Shown here piece after piece: positions 4,016 through 15,740 of a stretch of DNA of 24,880 bases. Below the pieces are notes generated by a model that was not told where the DNA came from, made no database searches, and saw nothing but the letters and a program-made list of their open reading frames with translations. Made by a program: the position numbers and the translations under genes. Position 1 is the first letter of the stretch, and every line of letters starts with the position of its first letter. Location: IMG/VR virus record IMGVR_UViG_3300035307_000002, positions 1-24,880 of that record. One strand, given 5' to 3'. Source of the DNA: a virus.

Positions 4016-4987
4016 ATGGCCGGTCAGGTTTGGGCAGTCAACTCTCTTGGCGGGTACATGTACTCCCGCCAACTGAGCAACGTGCTTCGCATGGCGGTGC
4101 AACCGCTTGTGAAGTTCCGCCAATTTGCTGACGTGCGTGATGCAAGTCAGCAAGGCAAGAAGAAGGGTGACATCTTCACCTGGGACGTGTTCTCGGATGT
4201 GGCGACCGCTGGTGGCCTCATCGTGGAAACGAACACGATGCCGGAAAGCAACTTCACGATCACGCAGGGCACCCTGACGATGTCGGAAGCCGGTAACAGC
4301 GTTCCGTACTCGGGCAAGCTGGACAATCTGTCCAAGTTCCCGGTGATGGAGCTCATCCAGAAGGTTCTGAAGAACGATGCCGTCAAAGCATTCGACCGCT
4401 TTGCATGGAACCAGTTCAACCAGACCCCTCTGCGAGCGATCGCATCGTCGGGCACGGACACCGCCGCCATTCAGTTGTTCACGAACGGCACGGTCACTGG
4501 CACCAACACGATTGCCTATGGCAATGCGCATGCCAAGTCCATCGTCGACACGATGAAGGAGCGCAACATCCCGGCGTACCTGGGCGACGACTACTACGCT
4601 CTGGCGTGGCCGTCAACGCTACGGAGCTTCAAGAACAACTTGGAGACCATCCACCAGTACAGCGACACCGGCTTCAAGTTGATCATGAACGGCGAAATCG
4701 GGCGCTACGAGAACGTCCGCTACGTCGAACAGACCAACATCGCCAAGGGCACCGGCACGGACGGCATCACGCAGACTGTGTGGTCCCAAGGCAAGAGCGA
4801 CTGGATCTTCTTCTTCGGGAACGACACCGTTGCAGAAGCCATCGCGGTGCCGGAAGAGATGCGAGGTAAGATCCCCAGTGACTACGGGCGCTCAAAAGGC
4901 GTGGCGTGGTACTACCTCGGCGGGTTCGGAATCGTCCACACTCTCGCTGCGAACGCTCGCATCGTGAAGTGGGACAGCTTGGTCTAA
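4016..4987 (+). CDS. major capsid protein (N4-gp56-like, HK97 fold)
   Basis: The product has 323 residues and starts at ATG 4016 after the strong Shine-Dalgarno AAGGAG. The sequence has the look of the N4-gp56-type major capsid family: an N-terminal arm (VNSLGGYMYSRQLSNVLRMA), a QGKKKGDIFTWDVFSDV segment, then TLTMSEAGNSVPYSGKLDNLS. The spine-helix region (VLKNDAVKAFDRFAWNQF) and a late WSQGKSDWIFFFGNDTVAEA segment follow. These subunits form the icosahedral shell. The gene follows the scaffold-like gene and precedes a likely decoration gene, as expected for a head module. It was probably not cleaved from a longer precursor, because no prohead protease is seen. Its leader shares a 15-nt string with the gene at 10258. 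Confidence 0.88.
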   Translation: MAGQVWAVNSLGGYMYSRQLSNVLRMAVQPLVKFRQFADVRDASQQGKKKGDIFTWDVFSDVATAGGLIVETNTMPESNFTITQGTLTMSEAGNSVPYSGKLDNLSKFPVMELIQKVLKNDAVKAFDRFAWNQFNQTPLRAIASSGTDTAAIQLFTNGTVTGTNTIAYGNAHAKSIVDTMKERNIPAYLGDDYYALAWPSTLRSFKNNLETIHQYSDTGFKLIMNGEIGRYENVRYVEQTNIAKGTGTDGITQTVWSQGKSDWIFFFGNDTVAEAIAVPEEMRGKIPSDYGRSKGVAWYYLGGFGIVHTLAANARIVKWDSLV

Positions 4988-4999
4988 GGAGTAGCCAAC

Positions 5000-5536
5000 A
5001 TGGCCACGAAAAACATGATGTACGACCACCCCGCCTATCAGGCGGTGTATCATCTACCGCTGTGGGGCGGGGTTGGTGTCAGCACGCTGAGCTCCAGCGT
5101 TGCGGCGGTCATCACCGGCGCGAGCGCGCAATCGACCAAGTTCGTGGCTTTCACGAACATGCTGATCAAGTCGATTACCGCGTCCGCTTCCACGATCGGC
5201 ACGAGCAGCGTCGCGAGCAATAGCGGCTTGTTCTTCCGCGTCACCAACAACGGCACCACGGCGGTCAACACCGTCACGGCGACGTACACGTTGGTGCCGA
5301 CGGGCGTACCGGGACCGGCAGGTGTTGCGGTGACTACGGCTGCATACGTGGTGAACCACATCGGTGGTACCGGCATCAGCACGAGCGCGGCGACAGTCAA
5401 TGCGCTCGGCGGCGCAACGGGCATCCCACTGCTTCAGGGAGACATCGGGTACTTCCAGAAAGGCACGGACGCTACCGAGCAGGTCCTTGCCATCGCGGAG
5501 TGCCTGATCCAGCCGTTGTCCAACGTCACTCTGTAG
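5000..5536 (+). CDS. putative head decoration or minor structural protein
   Basis: The product has 178 residues and starts at ATG 5000, with TAAGGAG upstream overlapping the capsid stop. It is rich in Ala, Thr, Ser, Gly and Val with alternating beta-type patterning (TKFVAFTNMLIKSITASAS, NTVTATYTLVPTG) and few charges, typical of beta-sandwich virion decoration proteins. There is no signal peptide. It sits immediately after the major capsid gene, where decoration or stabilising proteins commonly lie. I do not recognise a specific family, so capsid decoration is a positional inference. Confidence 0.65.
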   Translation: MATKNMMYDHPAYQAVYHLPLWGGVGVSTLSSSVAAVITGASAQSTKFVAFTNMLIKSITASASTIGTSSVASNSGLFFRVTNNGTTAVNTVTATYTLVPTGVPGPAGVAVTTAAYVVNHIGGTGISTSAATVNALGGATGIPLLQGDIGYFQKGTDATEQVLAIAECLIQPLSNVTL

Positions 5537-6471: not shown

Positions 6472-7845
6472 ATGGCCTATACATTCAACCCCCTAACGGG
6501 GAAATTCGACTACTATCAGCCCAGTACGGGCACCCCTGGGCCGACTGGTCCGGCGGGGCCTGCGGGAGCCGTCGGCTTCGGAATGGATGGCGAGGACGGT
6601 GCTGACGGCTGGTCTATCCCAGGACCACGCGGTCAGCCTGCGACTCCAGGTGCGACGTCTTACGGCGAGATGGTAATTGAGAACGGGGTTACTGGCCTCG
6701 TTCTTACAACGATCAACGTATTCTATCAAATCACTGCTGGCTGGGCCGCTGGTGATTTGAATGGCGTCACCTATGCCTCTGGTGCGCTTACTGTTCAGAA
6801 TTCCGGGGCGTACTTTATGACGGCTTCGGTGTCGTTGAACAGTACGTCCTCAAACCAGATCTACAGTATTCAGATATTCCAGAATGGTGTGGCCATTCCT
6901 GGTCACGACGCTGAAATAAAGCTAACCAACAATACAGACGTCAATTCTTTGACTATCGCCGGTCTTAGAACTACTGTCAATGCCGGAGACGTGTTCACTC
7001 TATGGGCACAGAACCAGTCCAGCGGTGGACAGACCCTGTTGGTGACGGATGCCAACTTCTCTATCTTCGCAGTGTCTGGGGCCACTGGAGCCACGGGCGC
7101 CAGTGGCAGCACTGGGCCAGACGGGCAGGACGGGGAGGACGCTTGGTTCGGCCCGCAGGGTAACCAAGGCATACAGGGAATTCCGGGAACGAATGGCCTG
7201 ACCGTTGTCGGTCAGGATGGACAGGACGGCGAGGACGCGTGGCTAGGGCCTCAGGGGAATCAGGGCGTGCCGGGCACCCCTGGCTCTTCTGGCATCAATG
7301 GCTTGACTGGCGCAGTTGGCCAGGATGGCCAAGATGGAGAGGACGCGTGGTTCGGCCCACAGGGTAACCCAGGTGTCAATGGCATCATTGGCGTAAACGG
7401 AGCGACGGGCGCAGTTGGCCAGGACGGCCAGGATGGTGAGGACGCATGGTTCGGCCCACAGGGTAACCCAGGTGTCAATGGTACTATTGGCGTCAATGGA
7501 GCGATGGGCTCCCCTGGCCAGGACGGCCAGGATGGAGAAGAGGGCTCCATCTGGCTGGTGACCCCTCCGTCCACTGGCGGCGCGGGCGTGCCAGCCACCA
7601 CGGTAGTCAGCGGCACCACACCTGGGCTATCCCCAATAGTCGGCGTGCTGACGAGCTATGCCCGGGAAGACCATAGCCACGGCACACCCGCTGCGGGTGC
7701 CAGCGGACCGTGGACCATCGTACAGAATAGTACTCTGGTGACGGACACGCTTACGGTTACGGCAGGGTATCAGTTCCTTTGCGGCAGAACGTTCAATAAT
7801 GTGGGCGCAATCATTAACAACGGTGACTTCATAATCACTCACTGA
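6472..7845 (+). CDS. collagen-like fiber protein with C1q-like domain
   Basis: The product has 457 residues and starts at ATG 6472. An anchor-like N-terminus, AYTFNPLTGKFDYY, is followed by Gly-X-Y repeats (about 20-62). Residues about 64-201 look like a C1q/TNF-type jelly roll, with FYQITAGWAAGDLNG and GAYFMTASVSLNS strands. A second, longer collagen-like region follows (about 203-358), built from repeats of GQDGQDGEDAWFGPQGNxG. The C-terminus contains a SYAREDHSHGTP motif common in phage fibers and a final beta-rich segment. Collagen-like stretches form trimeric rods; C1q-like heads bind proteins or glycans. This fits a trimeric head or tail fiber exposed on the virion. The acidic QDGQDGED units differ from classic proline-rich collagen. 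Confidence 0.85.
   Translation: MAYTFNPLTGKFDYYQPSTGTPGPTGPAGPAGAVGFGMDGEDGADGWSIPGPRGQPATPGATSYGEMVIENGVTGLVLTTINVFYQITAGWAAGDLNGVTYASGALTVQNSGAYFMTASVSLNSTSSNQIYSIQIFQNGVAIPGHDAEIKLTNNTDVNSLTIAGLRTTVNAGDVFTLWAQNQSSGGQTLLVTDANFSIFAVSGATGATGASGSTGPDGQDGEDAWFGPQGNQGIQGIPGTNGLTVVGQDGQDGEDAWLGPQGNQGVPGTPGSSGINGLTGAVGQDGQDGEDAWFGPQGNPGVNGIIGVNGATGAVGQDGQDGEDAWFGPQGNPGVNGTIGVNGAMGSPGQDGQDGEEGSIWLVTPPSTGGAGVPATTVVSGTTPGLSPIVGVLTSYAREDHSHGTPAAGASGPWTIVQNSTLVTDTLTVTAGYQFLCGRTFNNVGAIINNGDFIITH
7114..7545 (+). repeat. tandem collagen-like repeat array (units of about 96-108 nt)
   Basis: Four units and a partial fifth start at 7114, 7210, 7318, 7417 and 7516, with lengths of 96, 108, 99 and 99 nt. Units 3 and 4 match at about 85 of 99 positions by my count, including an identical 35-nt core (7348-7382 and 7447-7481). 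The repeat keeps frame and encodes G(Q/P)DGQDGEDAW(F/L)GPQGN. Such near-identity favours recombination and length variation of the fiber, and could also cause assembly collapse. Confidence 0.9.
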
Positions 7846-8489: not shown

Positions 8490-9608
8490 ATGCAGCAGTT
8501 TGACCTCCCGCTTCAGTTAACGAAGGTCCCCTACACCAAGGGGTTCGACGGAGACTTGATCATTGTCAGCCAAGATGCGTCAGTGTTCAGAGAGGGAACG
8601 CACTCCAACTTGACAGGCGGGACTCGTAGCGCCCTGTACACTCTGGTTGGCAATCAGACGGTGATGAAGTATTGGTCGCACAATGTTGCGATTGATGCTA
8701 GCGGTAACTTCAATGGTCGTGACGCTACGGGCACCTGCGCGCTGATCTGCCTTACAGAATCGAACACGATGCTGTACTTCGGGGCTGTCACTGGCCCCAA
8801 GGGCTCTCTTCCCGTGTTCACTCTATCAATCACGGTTAACGTGAATACTGGGGCTGTCACGGTGCCTACGGCGGGGTTGAACATCCTCAATCCGGCAGGC
8901 ACGTTCGCGTACACTATCACTTCTGCGGCCATCGCTGCGGCGCGCATTCTGAATCTGCCACTGACTACGGCGACAGACACTCTGGCGTGTCTTGGCCTTG
9001 CCCAGACATTCACTGGCGCAAATTCGATGCTGATGGCTCAGGCGGGTTTGACCATTCAGAACCCGGCAGCAACATTCAACTACACGATCCAGAGCGCGGC
9101 TATCGCAGCGGCGCGCACGCTGAACCTCCCGCTTCTCGCTGCCAATGATACTCTGGCAGTTCTTGGCCTTGCCCAGACGTTTACCGCGCTACAGACGAAT
9201 TCAACGAACGGCGCGGCCATCTCGCTTACGGGCGCGGCTGGCTCCCTGTTGCTGAGCGGTGCGAGCGCGGCTATTGGGTTCGCCACGGGCGCGGGTGGAG
9301 CGGTCACCCAGGCCACGTCTAAGGTGACAGCGTTTACGCTGAGCAGGCCCACTGGCAACATCACATTCGCGGCGGATGCCTTGGCGGCAGATACTACGAC
9401 TGCGGGCGCAGTGTGGACGAACACCGTAATTGCGGCAACTGATTTGGTTGTGTTTACGCACGTCTCTGGTGGAACACTGGGGGCGTACACGATTGCCTGT
9501 ACTCCAGCGGCGGGGTCTGCTACAGTGTTCCTTAGAAACGTCACTCCGGGGTCGCTTACTGAGGCTCCGGTATTCAAGTTCGCGGTTATCAAGGCGGTCA
9601 TCGCTTAA
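8490..9608 (+). CDS. fiber protein with duplicated 57-residue module
   Basis: The product has 372 residues and starts at ATG 8490, 1 nt after the upstream stop. The N-terminal part is unique. Residues 129-176 and 186-233 are two copies of a GLxIxNPAxTFxYTIxSAAIAAAR motif followed by LNLPL and DTLAxLGLAQTFT, a pattern seen in shafts of phage fibers. The C-terminal ~100 residues (AVTQATSKVTAFTLSRPTG... to SLTEAPVFKFAVIKAVIA) resemble a domain I recall as common at the ends of phage and prophage fiber or head-fiber proteins. No enzymatic motif is seen. It is probably a trimeric adhesin or head fiber. Confidence 0.75.
   Translation: MQQFDLPLQLTKVPYTKGFDGDLIIVSQDASVFREGTHSNLTGGTRSALYTLVGNQTVMKYWSHNVAIDASGNFNGRDATGTCALICLTESNTMLYFGAVTGPKGSLPVFTLSITVNVNTGAVTVPTAGLNILNPAGTFAYTITSAAIAAARILNLPLTTATDTLACLGLAQTFTGANSMLMAQAGLTIQNPAATFNYTIQSAAIAAARTLNLPLLAANDTLAVLGLAQTFTALQTNSTNGAAISLTGAAGSLLLSGASAAIGFATGAGGAVTQATSKVTAFTLSRPTGNITFAADALAADTTTAGAVWTNTVIAATDLVVFTHVSGGTLGAYTIACTPAAGSATVFLRNVTPGSLTEAPVFKFAVIKAVIA
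8874..9188 (+). repeat. tandem duplication inside the fiber gene (171-nt period)
   Basis: Copy 1 spans 8874-9017 and copy 2 spans 9045-9188, in the same frame with an offset of exactly 171 nt. By eye, 37 of 48 residues are identical. The copies have diverged more at the DNA level than the collagen repeats, so this duplication is older. It lengthens the predicted fiber shaft. Confidence 0.85.
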
Positions 9609-9623
9609 TCCAGGAGAATCATC

Positions 9624-9998
9624 ATGGCTTCCAACAAAATCGTTAACATTCCTCCGGTCGCGTTGACGAATACACTGACCACGAACATCTTGAACTGCGG
9701 GGTCACGTCGATGGCTGGCCCGGTCGGTCTGACAATCGCGCAGCCGTACCTCATCCTGCGTCACATCCGCATCGTGAACAAGACCGGCACCGCCGCCACG
9801 TTCTCTCTGTGGAAGGGCGGCAGTGCGGGCAACGTGGCGGGAACGGAAATCGTCGGTACCGGATATAGTGTCGCGGCGAATAGTGCCTTCGACTGGTATG
9901 GCGCCATGAGGTGTGACTCCACCGACTTTATCGTCGGTGGCTCTGGCACCACGACCGCGCTGACGATCCAGTTCGAAGGCGAAATCGGCATCTCGTAA
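9624..9998 (+). CDS. small virion-type protein, probable beta-sandwich
   Basis: The product has 124 residues and starts at ATG 9624 after a strong CAGGAG. A stretch such as YLILRHIRIVNKTGTAATFSLWKGG followed by SAFDWYGAMRCDSTDFIVGGSGTTTALTIQFEGEIG gives a clear beta-sandwich pattern. I associate this style with small phage structural proteins. It is flanked by fiber genes on the left and tiny genes on the right. The function is not identified; decoration or fiber knob is an inference. Confidence 0.65.
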   Translation: MASNKIVNIPPVALTNTLTTNILNCGVTSMAGPVGLTIAQPYLILRHIRIVNKTGTAATFSLWKGGSAGNVAGTEIVGTGYSVAANSAFDWYGAMRCDSTDFIVGGSGTTTALTIQFEGEIGIS

Positions 9999-9999
9999 C

Positions 10000-10242
10000 A
10001 TGCACACTCTGCAGAAGCATGTGCTGCACATCTCGCGGCACTGGGACAACCCCAGTATCGCGGTGAAGGTGTACTCACAAGGGATCTCATTGGAGATTTC
10101 TGTCGAGGATTTTTGCAGGGCTCTGGCGGCTGAGATGCCCCACCCGTTGACTGTACTTTCTCGGTCCAAGATGGAGAGCAATCTGCTGTCCGTGGTGGAC
10201 GCTGTGCTGGGCAAGATAAAAGAGTCCTCTGCCCACGTTTAA
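10000..10242 (+). CDS. small phage protein, unknown function
   Basis: The frame encodes 80 residues starting at ATG 10000, 1 nt after the upstream stop. It is a mixed alpha/beta protein with no signal or membrane segment; residues 28-45 (QGISLEISVEDFCRALAA) and the end (NLLSVVDAVLGKIKESSAH) look helical. No family is recognised. Its TAA forms part of the repeated Shine-Dalgarno leader for the next gene. Confidence 0.6.
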   Translation: MHTLQKHVLHISRHWDNPSIAVKVYSQGISLEISVEDFCRALAAEMPHPLTVLSRSKMESNLLSVVDAVLGKIKESSAHV

Positions 10243-10257: not shown

Positions 10258-10623
10258 ATGCATCCACTGCAAGAGAAGTTCCAGATCACCGTCCCCGCCA
10301 AGGAAGAAAAGGGCGAGGCTTGGGCGTCAGCGAAGAGCCAACGACACTTGAACGGCGCGGAGGAGGGCTGCGAAAAGTTCAACTTCCTGCCCCCAGGCAT
10401 GGAAATCGAAAACCAGGAACGGTCTCGCCAGGATAACATGGCGCTGAGCGTGGCTGGTGAGAGCGACGTGTCGGCCGACACGAATCCGGACTCGTTCCGT
10501 GACGGATTCAAGAAGCGTACCATGAAGGGCAGCGACGATCAGTACACCGGAGAACACGTTGATCACTTCTACGGCGACGCGGGTGGCTTCGCGGAGCGGA
10601 ACAACTACCTCGACCGAGAGTAA
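10258..10623 (+). CDS. small virion-type protein with FNFLPPGMEI motif (copy B)
   Basis: The product has 121 residues and starts at ATG 10258 after a strong AAGGAG. It is hydrophilic. Residues about 39-53 read KFNFLPPGMEIENQE, matching the protein at 5546-5962 except for one Asp/Glu exchange. The flanks differ: copy B continues with an acidic segment (ESDVSADTNPDSF) and then GEHVDHFYGDAGGFAERNNYLDRE. The conserved peptide in otherwise dissimilar proteins is best explained as a shared binding site on a common virion partner, or as the core of a diverged gene duplication. No known family is recognised. Confidence 0.65.
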   Translation: MHPLQEKFQITVPAKEEKGEAWASAKSQRHLNGAEEGCEKFNFLPPGMEIENQERSRQDNMALSVAGESDVSADTNPDSFRDGFKKRTMKGSDDQYTGEHVDHFYGDAGGFAERNNYLDRE

Positions 10624-10625
10624 CG

Positions 10626-10694
10626 ATGCACAAGCTGGTGTCGGACATAGTGTCCGAGGAGATGCCCTGCGGGAAGCCCCTAGTGAGATTCTGA
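10626..10694 (+). CDS. possible 22-residue leader-type mini-ORF
   Basis: ATG 10626 lies 2 nt after the previous stop, with GAGAG upstream, and reads 22 codons (MHKLVSDIVSEEM... to PLVRF) to TGA 10692-10694. That stop overlaps the ATG of the next gene by one base (TGATG), a classic termination-reinitiation junction. The next gene lacks a good Shine-Dalgarno of its own, which supports a coupling role. It could also be non-coding spacer, since a short frame alone proves little. Confidence 0.4.
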   Translation: MHKLVSDIVSEEMPCGKPLVRF

Positions 10695-11053
10695 TGAAAC
10701 TAGACAGAACCCGGTCGATCTGTGAAGTCTACGGGCCGGATGGGTTCTGGCTCGAGCAGGATGGGTTGCGGTTTGACCTTGCGGGGAACCTTGTTACCCC
10801 GCTGCCGCCGCCCCCACCTCCTCCCGTAGAGGACAGTAGGGTCATCTTGACAGATAGGCTTCATAGCGCGCTTGAGTTCCTCAAGCAAGTGCTGCGCCGC
10901 AGTCCTCTATCCAAGGCCACGGTGTACAAGACCGCTGAAACTAACAACCAGGAATGGCCTGAGGTCAAGCAGGCCGCTGAGTCTCTGAACGTTGTCAAGT
11001 TCAAGTACAACGGCGAAGAACTGTGGAAGTTGCCGGAAGACCACAGTGCTTGA
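10694..11053 (+). CDS. small protein with polyproline linker, unknown function
   Basis: From ATG 10694 the frame encodes 119 residues. A longer in-frame start at 10559 lies inside the preceding gene and would add a low-quality N-terminus, so I prefer 10694. Residues about 8-34 (ICEVYGPDGFWLEQDGLRFDLAGNLV) are beta-rich. A run of seven prolines follows (about 38-44), then a helical half ending VVKFKYNGEELWKLPED, which looks like a small winged-helix-type fold. Consecutive prolines normally slow ribosomes and call for EF-P. It lies next to the FkbM gene and overlaps that gene's proposed GTG start by 8 nt. No family is recognised. Confidence 0.6.
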   Translation: MKLDRTRSICEVYGPDGFWLEQDGLRFDLAGNLVTPLPPPPPPPVEDSRVILTDRLHSALEFLKQVLRRSPLSKATVYKTAETNNQEWPEVKQAAESLNVVKFKYNGEELWKLPEDHSA

Positions 11054-11804
11054 AGTTGTCAATAGCAGGCACGGCAGGATCATTGTCAGTCCTCTAGACA
11101 CCTACGTCGGCCGCAGCTTCTGCGAGTACGGGGAGTTTTCAGAGAGCGAGGTTGAGATCTTCGATAAGATTATCCAACCTGGAATGGTGGTGGCCGACGT
11201 GGGGGCCAACTTCGGAGCATTCACGATTTTCTTCGCAAAGAAAGCCGCCAAGGTCTATGCGATAGAACCGCAGCGCATGGTCTACAATGCCCTGTGTGGC
11301 ACCGTGGCGCTGAACGCATTGTGGAACGTCGTACCCGTAAACGCGGCAGTCGGTGCCACGCACGGCACTATCCAAGTTCCTGAACTCGCGCTAGACCATG
11401 AGAATAGCTGGGGCGGGGTAGAGATAGGGACGGGGGCCTATACGGTGCCGCTCACTCCCATCACCACGGCGTGCGACTTCCTCAAGATAGACGTGGAGGG
11501 CATGGAGCGCGAGGTTCTTCTCGGCGCTGCCGAGATGATCGCAGAGTGTAAGCCGGTAATGTACATCGAAAATGATAGAAAGGATAAGGCAGAGGCGCTA
11601 GTTCAAACGATCAGAGATTTGGGGTACAAGGCGTTCTGGCACGGAACGATGCTGTACAACAAGGACAACTTCAAGAAGAACCCCGTCAACGTATTTGAAG
11701 ACATTGTGTCCATCAATATCTTCTGCGTTCCCAGCCATGTGGAGGTTCCTTACATGGAGCCCGTCACGACGGCTACCCACCCCAATTTCATATATAAGAG
11801 ATAA
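11046..11804 (+). CDS. FkbM-type SAM-dependent methyltransferase
   Basis: From GTG 11046 (GGAAG just upstream) the product has 252 residues. The longer start at 10992 would lie mostly in the previous gene and adds a sequence without family character. SAM motif I is VADVGANFGAFT (about 49-60). Downstream, FLKIDVEGMEREVLLGA (about 146-162) is the signature FkbM-family segment, with acidic Asp149 and Glu151. FkbM-family enzymes are O-methyltransferases acting on sugars, polyketides or other small molecules, often in surface-glycan pathways. The next gene carries another methyltransferase joined to a glycosyltransferase, so a joint role in making or capping a methylated glycan is likely. Whether the target is a virion protein or a host surface molecule is unknown. 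Confidence 0.85.
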   Translation: MLEVVNSRHGRIIVSPLDTYVGRSFCEYGEFSESEVEIFDKIIQPGMVVADVGANFGAFTIFFAKKAAKVYAIEPQRMVYNALCGTVALNALWNVVPVNAAVGATHGTIQVPELALDHENSWGGVEIGTGAYTVPLTPITTACDFLKIDVEGMEREVLLGAAEMIAECKPVMYIENDRKDKAEALVQTIRDLGYKAFWHGTMLYNKDNFKKNPVNVFEDIVSINIFCVPSHVEVPYMEPVTTATHPNFIYKR

Positions 11805-11806
11805 TC

Positions 11807-13333
11807 ATGGTTTGGAAACGTGAAGATCCGTACATTGCGGAAAGCAAGAAAATCGTCTGGGAAGTAGCCCCGTACCTGCGCGGCAGGGGGGTCGACATCG
11901 GAGCTGGCGACTTCCGAGTCATGCCTCACGCTATGACTGTGGACAACTGGAACCATGCCCAGTTCGGGTTCACCCAGAAGCCTGACATCTTGGCAGAGGG
12001 CACTGACATCAGTATCCTCAGTAGCCAGACGATGGACTTCGTGTACAGCAGCCACACGCTGGAGCATATCGAGGATACAGCCAAGGCACTGAAGGAGTGG
12101 TGGCGGCTGGTCAAGGTGGGTGGGTACTTGGTCCTGTACCTCCCCCACGGGGACTTCTATCCCAAGGTGGGGGAGGACGGTGCCAACCCCGACCACAAGG
12201 TCAATCTCTGGCCCAAAACAATCATTGATGCCATGCCCGCTGGATGGGACTTAGTGGAGAACCAAGAGCGCAACGGCGGCAACGAGTACAGTTTCCTCCA
12301 AGTGTTTAAGAAGGTGAACGGCACTAGGAGAACAGAGTCGTGGAAGACCCCCAAGCCAGAGAAGACGGCTTGCGTGGTCAGATACGGAGCTTATGGAGAC
12401 ATGATGCAGGCCACCTCGGTGTGGGCCGCGCTGAAGAAGGAGGGTTATCATGTCACGGTTTTTGCTAGTCTTCCTGGGGCTAGTGTTATCGAGCATGATC
12501 CTAACATTGATCGACTGGTTCTGTTCGATAAAGACCAAGTTCCGAACGGCAATCTGCTGGATTTTTGGACGTGGCAGAAGAAGAAATTCGACCGATGGGT
12601 CAACCTGAGCGAGACGGTAGAGGGTACCCTGCTGGCCATGCCGGGGCGAACGCTCCACTGGTTCAATAAGGACGTCCGCCACTCGCTGATGAACCGGAAC
12701 TACGTGGAGTTTCAGCACCACGTGGCGGGGCTGGCGTATAGCAAACCCGAGGACATGCAGATCAAGTTCTACGCTACCGCCGTTGAGAAGGAAGAGGCGA
12801 TCAAGTTCAAGAAGAAGCAGGGTGGCGGCAAGCTAATCATGTGGTCGCTAGCTGGCAGTGCAGTCCACAAGACTTGGGCGGGCCTCGATAACGTGATGGC
12901 AGCTATCCTGCTGGAGTACCCAGACTGCCACATTATCCTTGTGGGTGGGGCAGAGTGTAAGGTGCTGGAGGCTGGATGGGAAAATGAGCCCAGAGTGATC
13001 AAAAGATCCGGCGTATGGACCATGCGGCAGACATTGTCTGTCCTGCCGCACTGTGATCTCATTATTGGCCCCGAGACAGGCGTGCTAAACGCCGCCGCGT
13101 GCATGCCAGTGCCCAAGGTTTGCATTTTAAGCCACTCTACGACGGAGAATCTGACGCGGGACTGGACTAATTGCACCCCGGTGTTCACCAAAGTCACCCC
13201 CTGCTACCCGTGCCACATGCTACACTATGGCTTCGAGCACTGTCATCAGGATAAAGAGTCTGGAACGGCTCAGTGCCAAGTGGACATCCCAATCTCTGAT
13301 GTGGTGGGCGCCGCTATGGAGTACCTGAAATGA
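11807..13333 (+). CDS. methyltransferase-GT9 glycosyltransferase fusion
   Basis: The product has 508 residues and starts at ATG 11807. Residues 1-~180 are a class I SAM methyltransferase: motif I GVDIGAGDFRV (about 28-38), SSHTLEHIED, then LKEWWRLVKVGGYLVLYLPHGD, as in Methyltransf_11 proteins. From about 185 a second domain begins, KTACVVRYGAYGDMMQATSVW, the N-terminal signature of GT9 (ADP-heptose/LPS heptosyltransferase-like) enzymes. The GT9 donor-site region is GPETGVLNAAACMPVPKVCIL (starting about 421). In classical members this is (D/E)(S/T)GxxHxAAA, so His is replaced by Asn here. A cysteine-rich tail (CYPCHML...HCHQ...QCQVDI) also matches GT9 C-termini. The domain order suggests glycan transfer coupled to methylation. 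Its stop overlaps the next start (ATGA), so it belongs to the late operon. Confidence 0.85.
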   Translation: MVWKREDPYIAESKKIVWEVAPYLRGRGVDIGAGDFRVMPHAMTVDNWNHAQFGFTQKPDILAEGTDISILSSQTMDFVYSSHTLEHIEDTAKALKEWWRLVKVGGYLVLYLPHGDFYPKVGEDGANPDHKVNLWPKTIIDAMPAGWDLVENQERNGGNEYSFLQVFKKVNGTRRTESWKTPKPEKTACVVRYGAYGDMMQATSVWAALKKEGYHVTVFASLPGASVIEHDPNIDRLVLFDKDQVPNGNLLDFWTWQKKKFDRWVNLSETVEGTLLAMPGRTLHWFNKDVRHSLMNRNYVEFQHHVAGLAYSKPEDMQIKFYATAVEKEEAIKFKKKQGGGKLIMWSLAGSAVHKTWAGLDNVMAAILLEYPDCHIILVGGAECKVLEAGWENEPRVIKRSGVWTMRQTLSVLPHCDLIIGPETGVLNAAACMPVPKVCILSHSTTENLTRDWTNCTPVFTKVTPCYPCHMLHYGFEHCHQDKESGTAQCQVDIPISDVVGAAMEYLK

Positions 13334-14286
13334 CTACCTCCGGGACCTACACATTCAGCGTATCGCGGGACGACATTATTCGTCAAGCGATGCTGAATAT
13401 CCAGAAGCTGGACCCAGACGAATCTCCAGGGGCAACGGAGACTACTGACTGCTCTCGTGTTTTGAACATGATGTGCAAGCAGTGGATGGCGAAGATCGAT
13501 TTTGCCCCCGGCTTGAAAGTATGGACACGGAAGCGGGGGCACCTTTTCTTATCCAGCACCACGGGCACACTGCCAATCGGCCCCTCAGCAGTGGGGTGGT
13601 CAAACTCCATTGAATACCCGGTGACCACGGTAGCGTCGGCAGCGGCTGCTACTGCCATTACGGTGTCTGCTATCGCGTCAGCCACCACGGGGTGGAACGT
13701 CGGCATTCAGTTGTCCAGCGGGGCGCTACAGTGGACCACTGTTGTTTCAGTGGTCGGGTTGGTGGTCAACCTGACGGCCCCTCTCGCGAGTTCGGTTAAT
13801 TCTGGCGCACAGATCTTTATGTACCAGACCGCCGCGCAGAATCCCCAGAACATTGAGACTGCCATCCTTCGTGACCAGGACATGTCGGACACGCCCCTGC
13901 GCCTCATGACGGTGCAGGACTACGACTACCTGCCCGAGAAGGCTGACCCCACGAACGCGGGTGACCCCACCGCCATCTACTTTGAACGCGGCATCTCTAG
14001 CTCGGTTGTCTACACCGATGTGGGCAGCGCTCAGGACGTCGCCAAGCACATTGTGCTCACGTATCTGGAGCCCATTCAGGATTTCGTCAACCCTCTGGAC
14101 ACTCCCTACTACCCGCAGGAGTGGTATCTGGCGCTGTGCTGGGGGTTGAGCGAGCAGATCTCCCCAATGTTCCGCTCCAAGTGGGGCGATAAGATGGAGG
14201 CGCTAAAGAACAACGCCATTGCTATCGCCCGAAACAGCAGCCCCGAGAGGTCTAGCTTGTACTTCCAGCCGGGAGCAGAAGATTGA
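13330..14286 (+). CDS. tail adaptor / P22 gp4-like head-completion protein
   Basis: The product has 318 residues and starts at ATG 13330, overlapping the previous stop by 4 nt. The N-terminus, SRDDIIRQAMLNIQKLDPDE...CSRVLNMMCKQWMAK, is the helical pattern typical of P22 gp4-type tail accessory factors that bind beneath the portal. A beta-rich Ser/Ala/Thr/Val insertion (about 95-165) follows, then YFERG...YPQEWYLALCWGLSEQISPMF and a helical end (KWGDKMEALKNNAIAIARNSS) that completes the family look. It would extend the portal and create the binding site for the next protein. The direct neighbour is a gp10-like gene, as in P22-type tails. The family assignment is by pattern and gene order. Confidence 0.78.
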   Translation: MTTSGTYTFSVSRDDIIRQAMLNIQKLDPDESPGATETTDCSRVLNMMCKQWMAKIDFAPGLKVWTRKRGHLFLSSTTGTLPIGPSAVGWSNSIEYPVTTVASAAAATAITVSAIASATTGWNVGIQLSSGALQWTTVVSVVGLVVNLTAPLASSVNSGAQIFMYQTAAQNPQNIETAILRDQDMSDTPLRLMTVQDYDYLPEKADPTNAGDPTAIYFERGISSSVVYTDVGSAQDVAKHIVLTYLEPIQDFVNPLDTPYYPQEWYLALCWGLSEQISPMFRSKWGDKMEALKNNAIAIARNSSPERSSLYFQPGAED

Positions 14287-15740
14287 AGACCATCCCCCTG
14301 TTCGGCACAGGGATCCGCAGCATCTCTGACATAGTGACCCGTCAGCGGAGGGTGAACTGTTTCTATCACCTTCGTGAAGACCAGGACAGAGCAGCAATAG
14401 TCATTCACGGTACCCCTGGGTTGTCGGTATTCGCAACTATTCCCGAATCTCCCATCTACGGAATGAGAGTCGTGGGGAACCTTCTTTATGTGGTGGCGGG
14501 GACTAGCCTGTACGCAGTCAGCACTATCGGGTCAGTCACTCATCTGGGTGGTCCCAGTGCCAAGATGCCAACAGTGTCTCGGTATGTGGGGATGAGTGAC
14601 AACGGGTTCCACTTGATGATAGTGGATGGGATAGCTGGGTATCTCTTCACGTTTGCCACTGGTGTTCTTTCTAAGATCGTTGATGCAAACTTCCCCAATG
14701 GGTGCATTTCTGTTGACTTTTTAGATGGTCGGTTCTACGTTGACAATCCAGTTGCTAGTGCGCTGACTCCGACACAGCGGCAATTCAATGCCAGTTCACT
14801 CGTAAGTGGAATTGGCGCCGAAACGTGGCCGGGTCTGGCATTCGGAACTAAGGAAAACTCATCTGATAGCTTGGTGCGAGTAAGCGTTCTAAACGGTGCG
14901 CTTGTCTTGTGGGGCACTACGTCAATCGAGTTTTGGCAGGACGTCGGCACTGTGCCACTGCCAGTTCAGCGCATTAACGGGGCCACCCAGTCGTGGGGGC
15001 TTGCCGCGTTCTACAGTTTGCAGTATCTGGGCAATACTGCGGTATTCCTAGGCACCAATCGCGGGAACGGCGTCCAGGTAATCAAGCTAAAGGGATACAA
15101 TCCCGAGCGAATCAGCACTGCGGACATTGAGGACGTTCTTTCCAACATCGGGTACTGGGCAGACATTACGTCGTTGACGTACATGGTGGACGGACACCTA
15201 ATGTATCAGTTCACCAGCCCCACGGCGAATCGTAGCTTCCTGTACGACGATAATACCGGGGTCTGGTCCGAGACTCAGACTGGCGCAGGAGACACTCCAG
15301 CCCGTCACATGGGGAACCTGTCTGTGGCGTTCTTCCAGAAGAACTACGTTACTGACCTGACGAGCGGTAATATCTACTTGGTAGATGATGAAGTGTTTAC
15401 AGATAACGGAATCACCATTCCCAGGCAGGTGGCCACTAAGCACATCCGGAATCAGGGTAACGAGGTGAGCATGTCTGAGCTGATGCTAGACTTTGAGACG
15501 GGGGTGGGCAATGCTGCAAGCCCCAATCCTAAAGTTGCTCTTAGACTCTCTAAGGACAGTGGTGCCACCTTTGGACCGGAGAAGTGGTTCACCCTCGGAG
15601 CCATCGGCAAGCCAAATACGCGAGTTATCGCTCGTCGTCTAGGGTCTGCAAGAGACTTCGTCGTGCAGATTACTGTAACGGATCCTGTTAAGTTCGTTAT
15701 CGCATCTGGCAGTGCCGAGATCGAGCTCTCTGAGGACTAG
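14283..15740 (+). CDS. P22 gp10-like packaged-DNA stabilisation protein
   Basis: The product has 485 residues. The start is TTG 14283, overlapping the previous stop (TTGA), with a strong GGGAGCAG Shine-Dalgarno just upstream; no ATG lies close enough to replace it. The N-terminus GIRSISDIVTRQRRVNCFYHLRED, followed by HGTPGLSVFATIPESPIYGMRVVGNLLYVVAGTSLYAV, is the beta-propeller-like pattern of phage stabilisation proteins of the P22 gp10 type. Repeated short beta blocks continue to the end. These proteins close the portal after packaging and join the tail needle or fibers to the adaptor. The position directly after the gp4-like gene is diagnostic. Confidence 0.82.
   Translation: MKTIPLFGTGIRSISDIVTRQRRVNCFYHLREDQDRAAIVIHGTPGLSVFATIPESPIYGMRVVGNLLYVVAGTSLYAVSTIGSVTHLGGPSAKMPTVSRYVGMSDNGFHLMIVDGIAGYLFTFATGVLSKIVDANFPNGCISVDFLDGRFYVDNPVASALTPTQRQFNASSLVSGIGAETWPGLAFGTKENSSDSLVRVSVLNGALVLWGTTSIEFWQDVGTVPLPVQRINGATQSWGLAAFYSLQYLGNTAVFLGTNRGNGVQVIKLKGYNPERISTADIEDVLSNIGYWADITSLTYMVDGHLMYQFTSPTANRSFLYDDNTGVWSETQTGAGDTPARHMGNLSVAFFQKNYVTDLTSGNIYLVDDEVFTDNGITIPRQVATKHIRNQGNEVSMSELMLDFETGVGNAASPNPKVALRLSKDSGATFGPEKWFTLGAIGKPNTRVIARRLGSARDFVVQITVTDPVKFVIASGSAEIELSED

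Follow-up and report, generated by a model that had tools for sequence, protein, structure and literature searches.

Glycosyltransferases encoded by phages are usually read as accessory genes that modify the host. Glycosylation of the virion by phage enzymes is already known from mycobacteriophages, in which phage-encoded glycosyltransferases modify capsid and tail-tube proteins (Freeman et al. 2023, as related in papers that cite it). The closest described enzymes to the one considered here have the fold of glycosyltransferase family 9 (GT9) and comprise the lipopolysaccharide (LPS) heptosyltransferases WaaC and WaaF (structure 1psw), the solved structure 3tov and the protein heptosyltransferase TibC with its relative AAH. 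TibC takes adenosine diphosphate (ADP)-D,D-heptose as its donor and does not accept ADP-L,D-heptose; the residues it modifies are serines (PMC4358343). Here we describe a GT9 gene located inside the virion operon of an uncultured virus, IMG/VR record IMGVR_UViG_3300035307_000002, whose 24,880 bases are referred to below as the window. The encoded protein joins a class I S-adenosylmethionine (SAM) methyltransferase to a GT9-like domain (Table 1). The window consists mainly of the virion operon; its genes for portal, capsid, fibre, adaptor and head-closure proteins all run the same way.

The phage protein shares with the LPS heptosyltransferases the GT-B fold and the positions of the catalytic Asp and Lys, and with WaaF-type host GT9s a four-cysteine finger. 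Unlike the LPS enzymes, it has E-x-G-x-x-N where they have D-x-G-x-x-H, falls on a separate branch of the tree, carries a fused methyltransferase and is encoded in a virion operon. TibC and AAH, as described in PMC4358343, resemble it in the heptosyltransferase fold, the four-cysteine finger and the conserved base; they differ in having an N-terminal beta-barrel in place of the methyltransferase and in their cysteine spacing (x2-x15-x11, versus x2-x9-x10 in the phage protein). The finger was considered as a mark specific to TibC and rejected, since WaaF-type host GT9s carry one too. No autotransporter gene was found among the subset of window open reading frames (ORFs) scanned with Pfam or PHROGs. 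In the mycobacteriophage system the hosts are different, and the F1 relative Maravista encodes its glycosyltransferases close to the 3′ end of the genome, whereas the window GT9 is inside the virion operon; the citing passages describe neither a GT9-methyltransferase fusion nor a heptose cassette there. A paper on Acinetobacter phage glycans (PMC8402811) was set aside because it concerns host-derived lipid-linked glycans. Phage GT9s in themselves are nothing new, since predicted structures are already available for uncultured phage proteins under RfaF-type and Aah/TibC-type names. In the literature searched, which included few subscription journals, we found no report of a universal virion-module gene encoding a GT9-methyltransferase fusion, nor of a phage heptose cassette paired with a virion-operon GT9.

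Since a search with the GT9 gene itself would favour loci that contain it, related loci were fetched by capsid protein. Three sets were collected: the best 80 near relatives of the window (first set), the best 80 loci from a marine branch with a capsid identity of about 64% (marine set) and the best 80 retrieved with the capsid protein of a Polaromonas prophage (third set; contigs were partly shared, and 50 were newly fetched and analysed). A locus was taken as complete when, besides the capsid gene, it contained an adaptor or head-closure Hc3 gene downstream. A GT9 gene stands between the capsid and adaptor/Hc3 genes in 40/40 complete loci of the first set, 46/46 of the marine set and 29/29 of the third, or 115/115 pooled loci, 85 of them distinct by capsid sequence. 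Nearly all other fetched loci end at contig borders. The sole long locus without GT9 in the marine and third sets (L364) shares its contig with L008, whose GT9 is located further downstream; the contig also appears in the first set, as L115. Three first-set loci (L086, L113 and L139) and L089 extend at least 4 kb past the capsid gene with neither an adaptor gene nor GT9 within the stretch. Over 35 loci, distances between the fused proteins correlate with those between the adaptor (r 0.72), Hc3 (r 0.74) and capsid (r 0.64) proteins, each value being unmatched in 1000 permutations; the adaptor–Hc3 correlation (r 0.77) is about equal to that of the fused protein with either. The GT9 gene belongs to the core of the virion module, holds a fixed position there and is co-inherited with it.

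Searching IMG/VR with the fused protein returned 71 relatives. The median ratio of nonsynonymous to synonymous substitution rates was 0.07 over 40 close pairs of relatives, and the fused gene is thus under purifying selection. A methyltransferase accompanies GT9 in 40/40 complete loci of the first set (32 fused, 8 split) and in 29/29 of the third (28 fused); whether a fused methyltransferase is present depends on the lineage. One-per-species bacterial genomes contain 27 loci, of which 23 adjoin a capsid homologue, so that the GT9 family travels with these phages. The loci next to a capsid gene include those of cultured Paraburkholderia, Aromatoleum and Pseudothauera strains, and several of the genome loci are probably prophages or prophage remnants.

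Two loci show more elaborate arrangements of the same interval. In L053 (2034-4608) GT9, methyltransferase and a second GT9 follow one another between the capsid and adaptor genes, and in L070 (1493-7711) the place of the single gene is taken by a cluster of methyltransferase-like, GT2-like and GT9 genes, all but the GT9 identified by eye. The capsid gene itself is interrupted by approximately 0.9 kb in L238 (7091-9097) and L250 (2471-4482), both inserts having a group I intron at their 3′ end (Rfam, 62-63 bits). Capsid ORFs are also split in L016 and L252; an intron search of L016 found none.

A preliminary description of the window had proposed that a class I methyltransferase and a GT9-like domain share one chain, and profile searches together with structure prediction bear this out. 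The N-terminal half passes the Methyltransf_11 cut-off (36.2 bits; cut-off 21.2), and G26, D30, G32, G34, D46 and D77 are invariant across 45 aligned relatives. Alone, the window protein scores 19.3 bits with Glyco_transf_9 (PF01075), short of the cut-off of 22, while 30/45 aligned relatives match this model at E≤0.01, the best at 2.5e-10. In the AlphaFold2 model (predicted local distance difference test, pLDDT, 91.8), residues from about 184 to 508 match 3tov (Z 24.5), WaaF 1psw (Z 23.3), WaaC (Z 20.4) and TibC (Z 19.7), and residues 1-172 match class I methyltransferases (3dli, Z 16.1) and so form no beta-barrel. The second half of the gene is accordingly modelled as a GT9 fold of the WaaC/WaaF type. 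The fused protein of locus L034 (5260-7608) has approximately 250 additional N-terminal residues of unassigned nature.

Residues of the putative active site were counted over 80 non-redundant GT9 domains of the phage-type family. The predicted base D198 and donor-phosphate lysine K355 are invariant, the equivalence of D198 to the WaaC/TibC base being by alignment. Position 423 is E in 69/80 and D in 11/80 domains, and position 428 is N in 65/80, W in 9/80 (the FkbM-linked set) and H in 2/80. The Asn noted earlier in place of the usual His is therefore present as described, but it is a family signature and not a local oddity or a lesion of the window gene. Among host GT9 loci D-[ST]-G-x-x-H was found in 21/29, the picked ORF of the other 8 having no readable motif; this motif is typical of the host members compared rather than a formal GT9 criterion. 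In a tree of the 80 phage-type domains and 21 host GT9 rows, the two sets are split by a branch with 100/99 support; the host rows were picked for carrying D-[ST]-G-x-x-H, come from eight genomes and include several long branches.

The gene immediately upstream encodes an FkbM-family methyltransferase, as first proposed. The ORF has a GTG start at 11046 within the stop of the preceding gene (GTGCTTGA) and its own stop at 11804, and its product passes both Pfam PF05050 Methyltransf_21 (57.6 bits; cut-off 22.7) and NCBIfam TIGR01444 fkbM_fam (89.9 bits; cut-off 37.7), with the SAM-site and KIDVEGME motifs kept in a 36-sequence alignment. FkbM is present in only 1/80 near-relative capsid-anchored loci and in 0/46 complete marine loci and is thus an optional add-on; the conserved unit is GT9, and not the FkbM and fusion gene pair that the preliminary description had singled out. 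Locus L152 repeats the gene order of the window, with an FkbM protein 51% identical. Among 80 FkbM-anchored loci, GT9 is situated within 1.5 kb in 14, a single-ORF FkbM-GT9 fusion is found in 5, GT9 is elsewhere in the locus in 1 and none was seen in 60. Linkage and fusion of FkbM to GT9 are recurrent, and these, with the location in a virion operon, set the window protein apart within its family.

Genes for ADP-heptose synthesis were found in some relatives. Of 50 GT9-bearing contigs, 10 carry an HldC-like adenylyltransferase, a lower bound given that contigs are fragments, and 8, all within these 10, a GmhA-like isomerase. In five contigs read in detail, kinase, GmhA, HldC and GmhB genes are side by side and mostly overlapping, and for each cassette gene scanned the best NCBIfam match is the corresponding ADP-heptose enzyme. 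Two contig pairs carry identical GmhA proteins; other pairs are only 42% identical, and the cassette thus does not reflect one recent event in one clone. The epimerase family PF01370, which includes HldD, is found in 0/10 cassette contigs. A kinase-GmhA-HldC-GmhB set without an epimerase ends at ADP-D-glycero-D-manno-heptose, so that ADP-D,D-heptose is the expected product. This is also the donor of TibC (PMC4358343). The likely donor of the phage enzyme, judged from gene content, would be an ADP-heptose, with indications pointing to ADP-D,D-heptose; the altered donor use raised in the preliminary description may still apply, although the cassettes speak for an ADP-heptose. By eye, the five clusters adjoin thymidylate-synthase-like genes, and L393 has another glycosyltransferase-like ORF (9065-10213) near its HldC and kinase genes.

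The neighbours of the fused gene are collected in Table 1. The fused gene and the tail-adaptor gene do overlap by ATGA at 13330, as reported; the genes directly upstream of the enzyme genes are small ORFs and not fibres. The collagen-like fibre gene is situated 3.2 kb upstream of the enzyme genes and does not adjoin them. The adaptor assignment rests on the position before Hc3, phrog_12985 itself being a family of unknown function. The closest annotated phages by capsid protein are Vibrio and E. coli phages (about 52% identity); GT9 is absent from the entire records of two such relatives, Bas95 and D279. Annotated phage records contain no match to the fused protein or to a marine GT9, and Paraburkholderia and FkbM-GT9 queries against them gave, among the matches listed, methyltransferase parts only.

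Table 1. Positions of genes, domains and predicted functional residues in the window, and of ADP-heptose gene clusters in related contigs.
Feature	Position	Strand	Basis or remark
Major capsid protein gene	4016..4987	+	phrog_1357; fixed upstream anchor
Small Ser/Thr-rich, predicted all-beta protein after capsid gene	5000..5536	+	speculative candidate acceptor
Collagen-like fibre	6472..7845	+	Collagen, 79.3 bits
Small ORF, function-unassigned family	10258-10623		homologues in 32/40 complete relatives
Small ORF, function-unassigned family	10559-11053		homologues in 28/40 complete relatives
FkbM-family methyltransferase, 252 residues, accessory gene	11046..11804	+	conserved domain about 11196-11630
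Methyltransferase-GT9 fusion, 508 residues, core element	11807..13333	+	profiles, alignment, structure model
Class I SAM methyltransferase domain, residues 1-172	11807..12322	+	Methyltransf_11; 3dli
GT9-like (heptosyltransferase fold) domain, residues 186-508	12362..13330	+	3tov, 1psw fold matches
D198, predicted catalytic base	12398..12400	+	80/80 GT9 domains; aligned with GD of 3tov/1psw
K355, predicted donor-phosphate lysine	12869..12871	+	80/80 GT9 domains; aligned with K of 1psw
Donor motif E-T-G-V-L-N (E423-N428), replacing D-[ST]-G-x-x-H	13073..13090	+	
Four-cysteine finger C466/C469/C479/C490	13202..13276	+	76-79/80 at each position
ATGA overlap, fused gene/tail-adaptor gene	13330..13333	+	sequence
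Tail-adaptor gene, fixed downstream neighbour	13330..14286	+	phrog_12985; synteny
Head-closure Hc3 gene, fixed downstream neighbour	14283..15740	+	phrog_578, E 3e-79
Kinase-GmhA-HldC-GmhB cluster, L391	7196-9571		
Kinase-GmhA-HldC-GmhB cluster, L413	3048-5370		
Kinase-GmhA-HldC-GmhB cluster, L414	1690-4115		
Kinase-GmhA-HldC-GmhB cluster, L415	2525-4998		
Kinase-GmhA-HldC-GmhB cluster, L416	1734-4095		

Our preferred reading, to which we give about even chances, is of an active heptosyltransferase of the GT9 fold, specific to these phages, that heptosylates a core virion protein, the sugar then being methylated. The enzyme would be expressed late in infection from the virion operon and would move heptose from ADP-heptose, probably ADP-D-glycero-D-manno-heptose, to Ser/Thr-type sites of the acceptor in a TibC-like mode; the fused methyltransferase domain, and in the window phage the neighbouring FkbM too, would then O-methylate the sugar. 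Virion glycosylation, suggested in the preliminary description, gains support from the fixed position, the co-inheritance and the relatives' cassettes. A collagen-like protein, favoured there as a special partner, is rejected as a required acceptor: none of the 40 complete relatives, a group that does not include the window, has a collagen-like ORF (at least eight G-x-y repeats by regular expression) between the capsid and adaptor genes. The capsid protein or the small protein encoded after it might, speculatively, be acceptors. Candidacy of the latter goes no further than its Ser/Thr content (0.21 and 0.19, versus 0.16 for the capsid protein, a rough count in which a few rows are wrong-frame ORFs); its model (pLDDT 69) has no PDB match at E≤0.001.

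Several observations weigh against virion heptosylation. A position in the virion operon is no proof of a virion acceptor, LPS-type enzymes give better structural matches than TibC, and the donor motif differs from that of host GT9s, so the donor could differ as well. No methyltransferase of this family occurs in the 46 complete marine loci, and methylation is thus not essential. Heptose genes were seen in a minority of the contigs, all score under the NCBIfam equivalog cut-offs, and no cassette was seen among the genes scanned in the window's own record. Compared with similarly sized FkbM-bearing contigs, HldC is not significantly enriched (p 0.26, computed with 1/18 in the comparison set; the listing has 17 viral contigs of up to 116 kb with 1 match, and one of the 17, G031, is also in the test set), and in the FkbM-only comparison three of the four HldC matches are on contigs above 245 kb. 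AAH, moreover, takes both heptose forms (PMC4358343).

The main alternative, which we regard as somewhat unlikely, is that GT9 modifies the host LPS core late in infection, adding heptose to Kdo (3-deoxy-D-manno-octulosonic acid) or heptose, with the methyltransferases capping the sugar; the change would block superinfection or the loss of progeny to debris. The closest solved folds, 3tov and WaaF, are of the LPS heptosyltransferase type, the 23 capsid-adjoining genome loci are all, by their titles, in Gram-negative-type phyla, and a phage-encoded ADP-heptose supply fits equally. LPS core is normally built with L,D-heptose, however, and the cassettes lack an epimerase, though the host could supply one; GT9 is also fixed inside the virion module and inherited with it, and a branch with full support separates the phage GT9s from the 21 host enzymes. 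It is distinctly improbable that GT9 instead takes a different host nucleotide sugar in its E/N or D/W site, the cassettes serving host-surface change or counter-defence. The E-x-G-x-x-N signature and the presence of cassettes in just 10/50 contigs would fit, and since the Epimerase family and GT2 were each found in 0/12 relatives, any other donor would have to come from the host. What speaks against this reading is that GT9 co-occurs with genes of the canonical donor pathway of its fold, and that GmhA-like matches were found in only 13/50,697 phage records, a count made by tblastn and set beside contig profile searches, so that the small p values of this isolate-phage comparison are only indicative. 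A mainly structural or assembly role in the head-tail region would agree with the universal, fixed position between the capsid and adaptor genes, but is very improbable given catalytic positions invariant in 80/80 domains, methyltransferase forms both attached and detached, and the retained GT9 fold.

GT9 here behaves as a core gene of the virion module, with a recognizable donor pathway in some relatives. At a little below even confidence, we propose that a large, ecologically widespread, mostly uncultured podovirus-type lineage relies on obligate virion heptosylation, with a core heptosyltransferase, a product diversified by methyltransferases and, in several members, an ADP-D,D-heptose pathway of its own. 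Direct testing is feasible, as the gene stands beside the capsid gene in cultured bacterial genomes of the three genera named above. If the proposal is true, particle glycosylation would be standard in a major lineage of Gram-negative phages, and sugar methylation would be a variable layer upon it.

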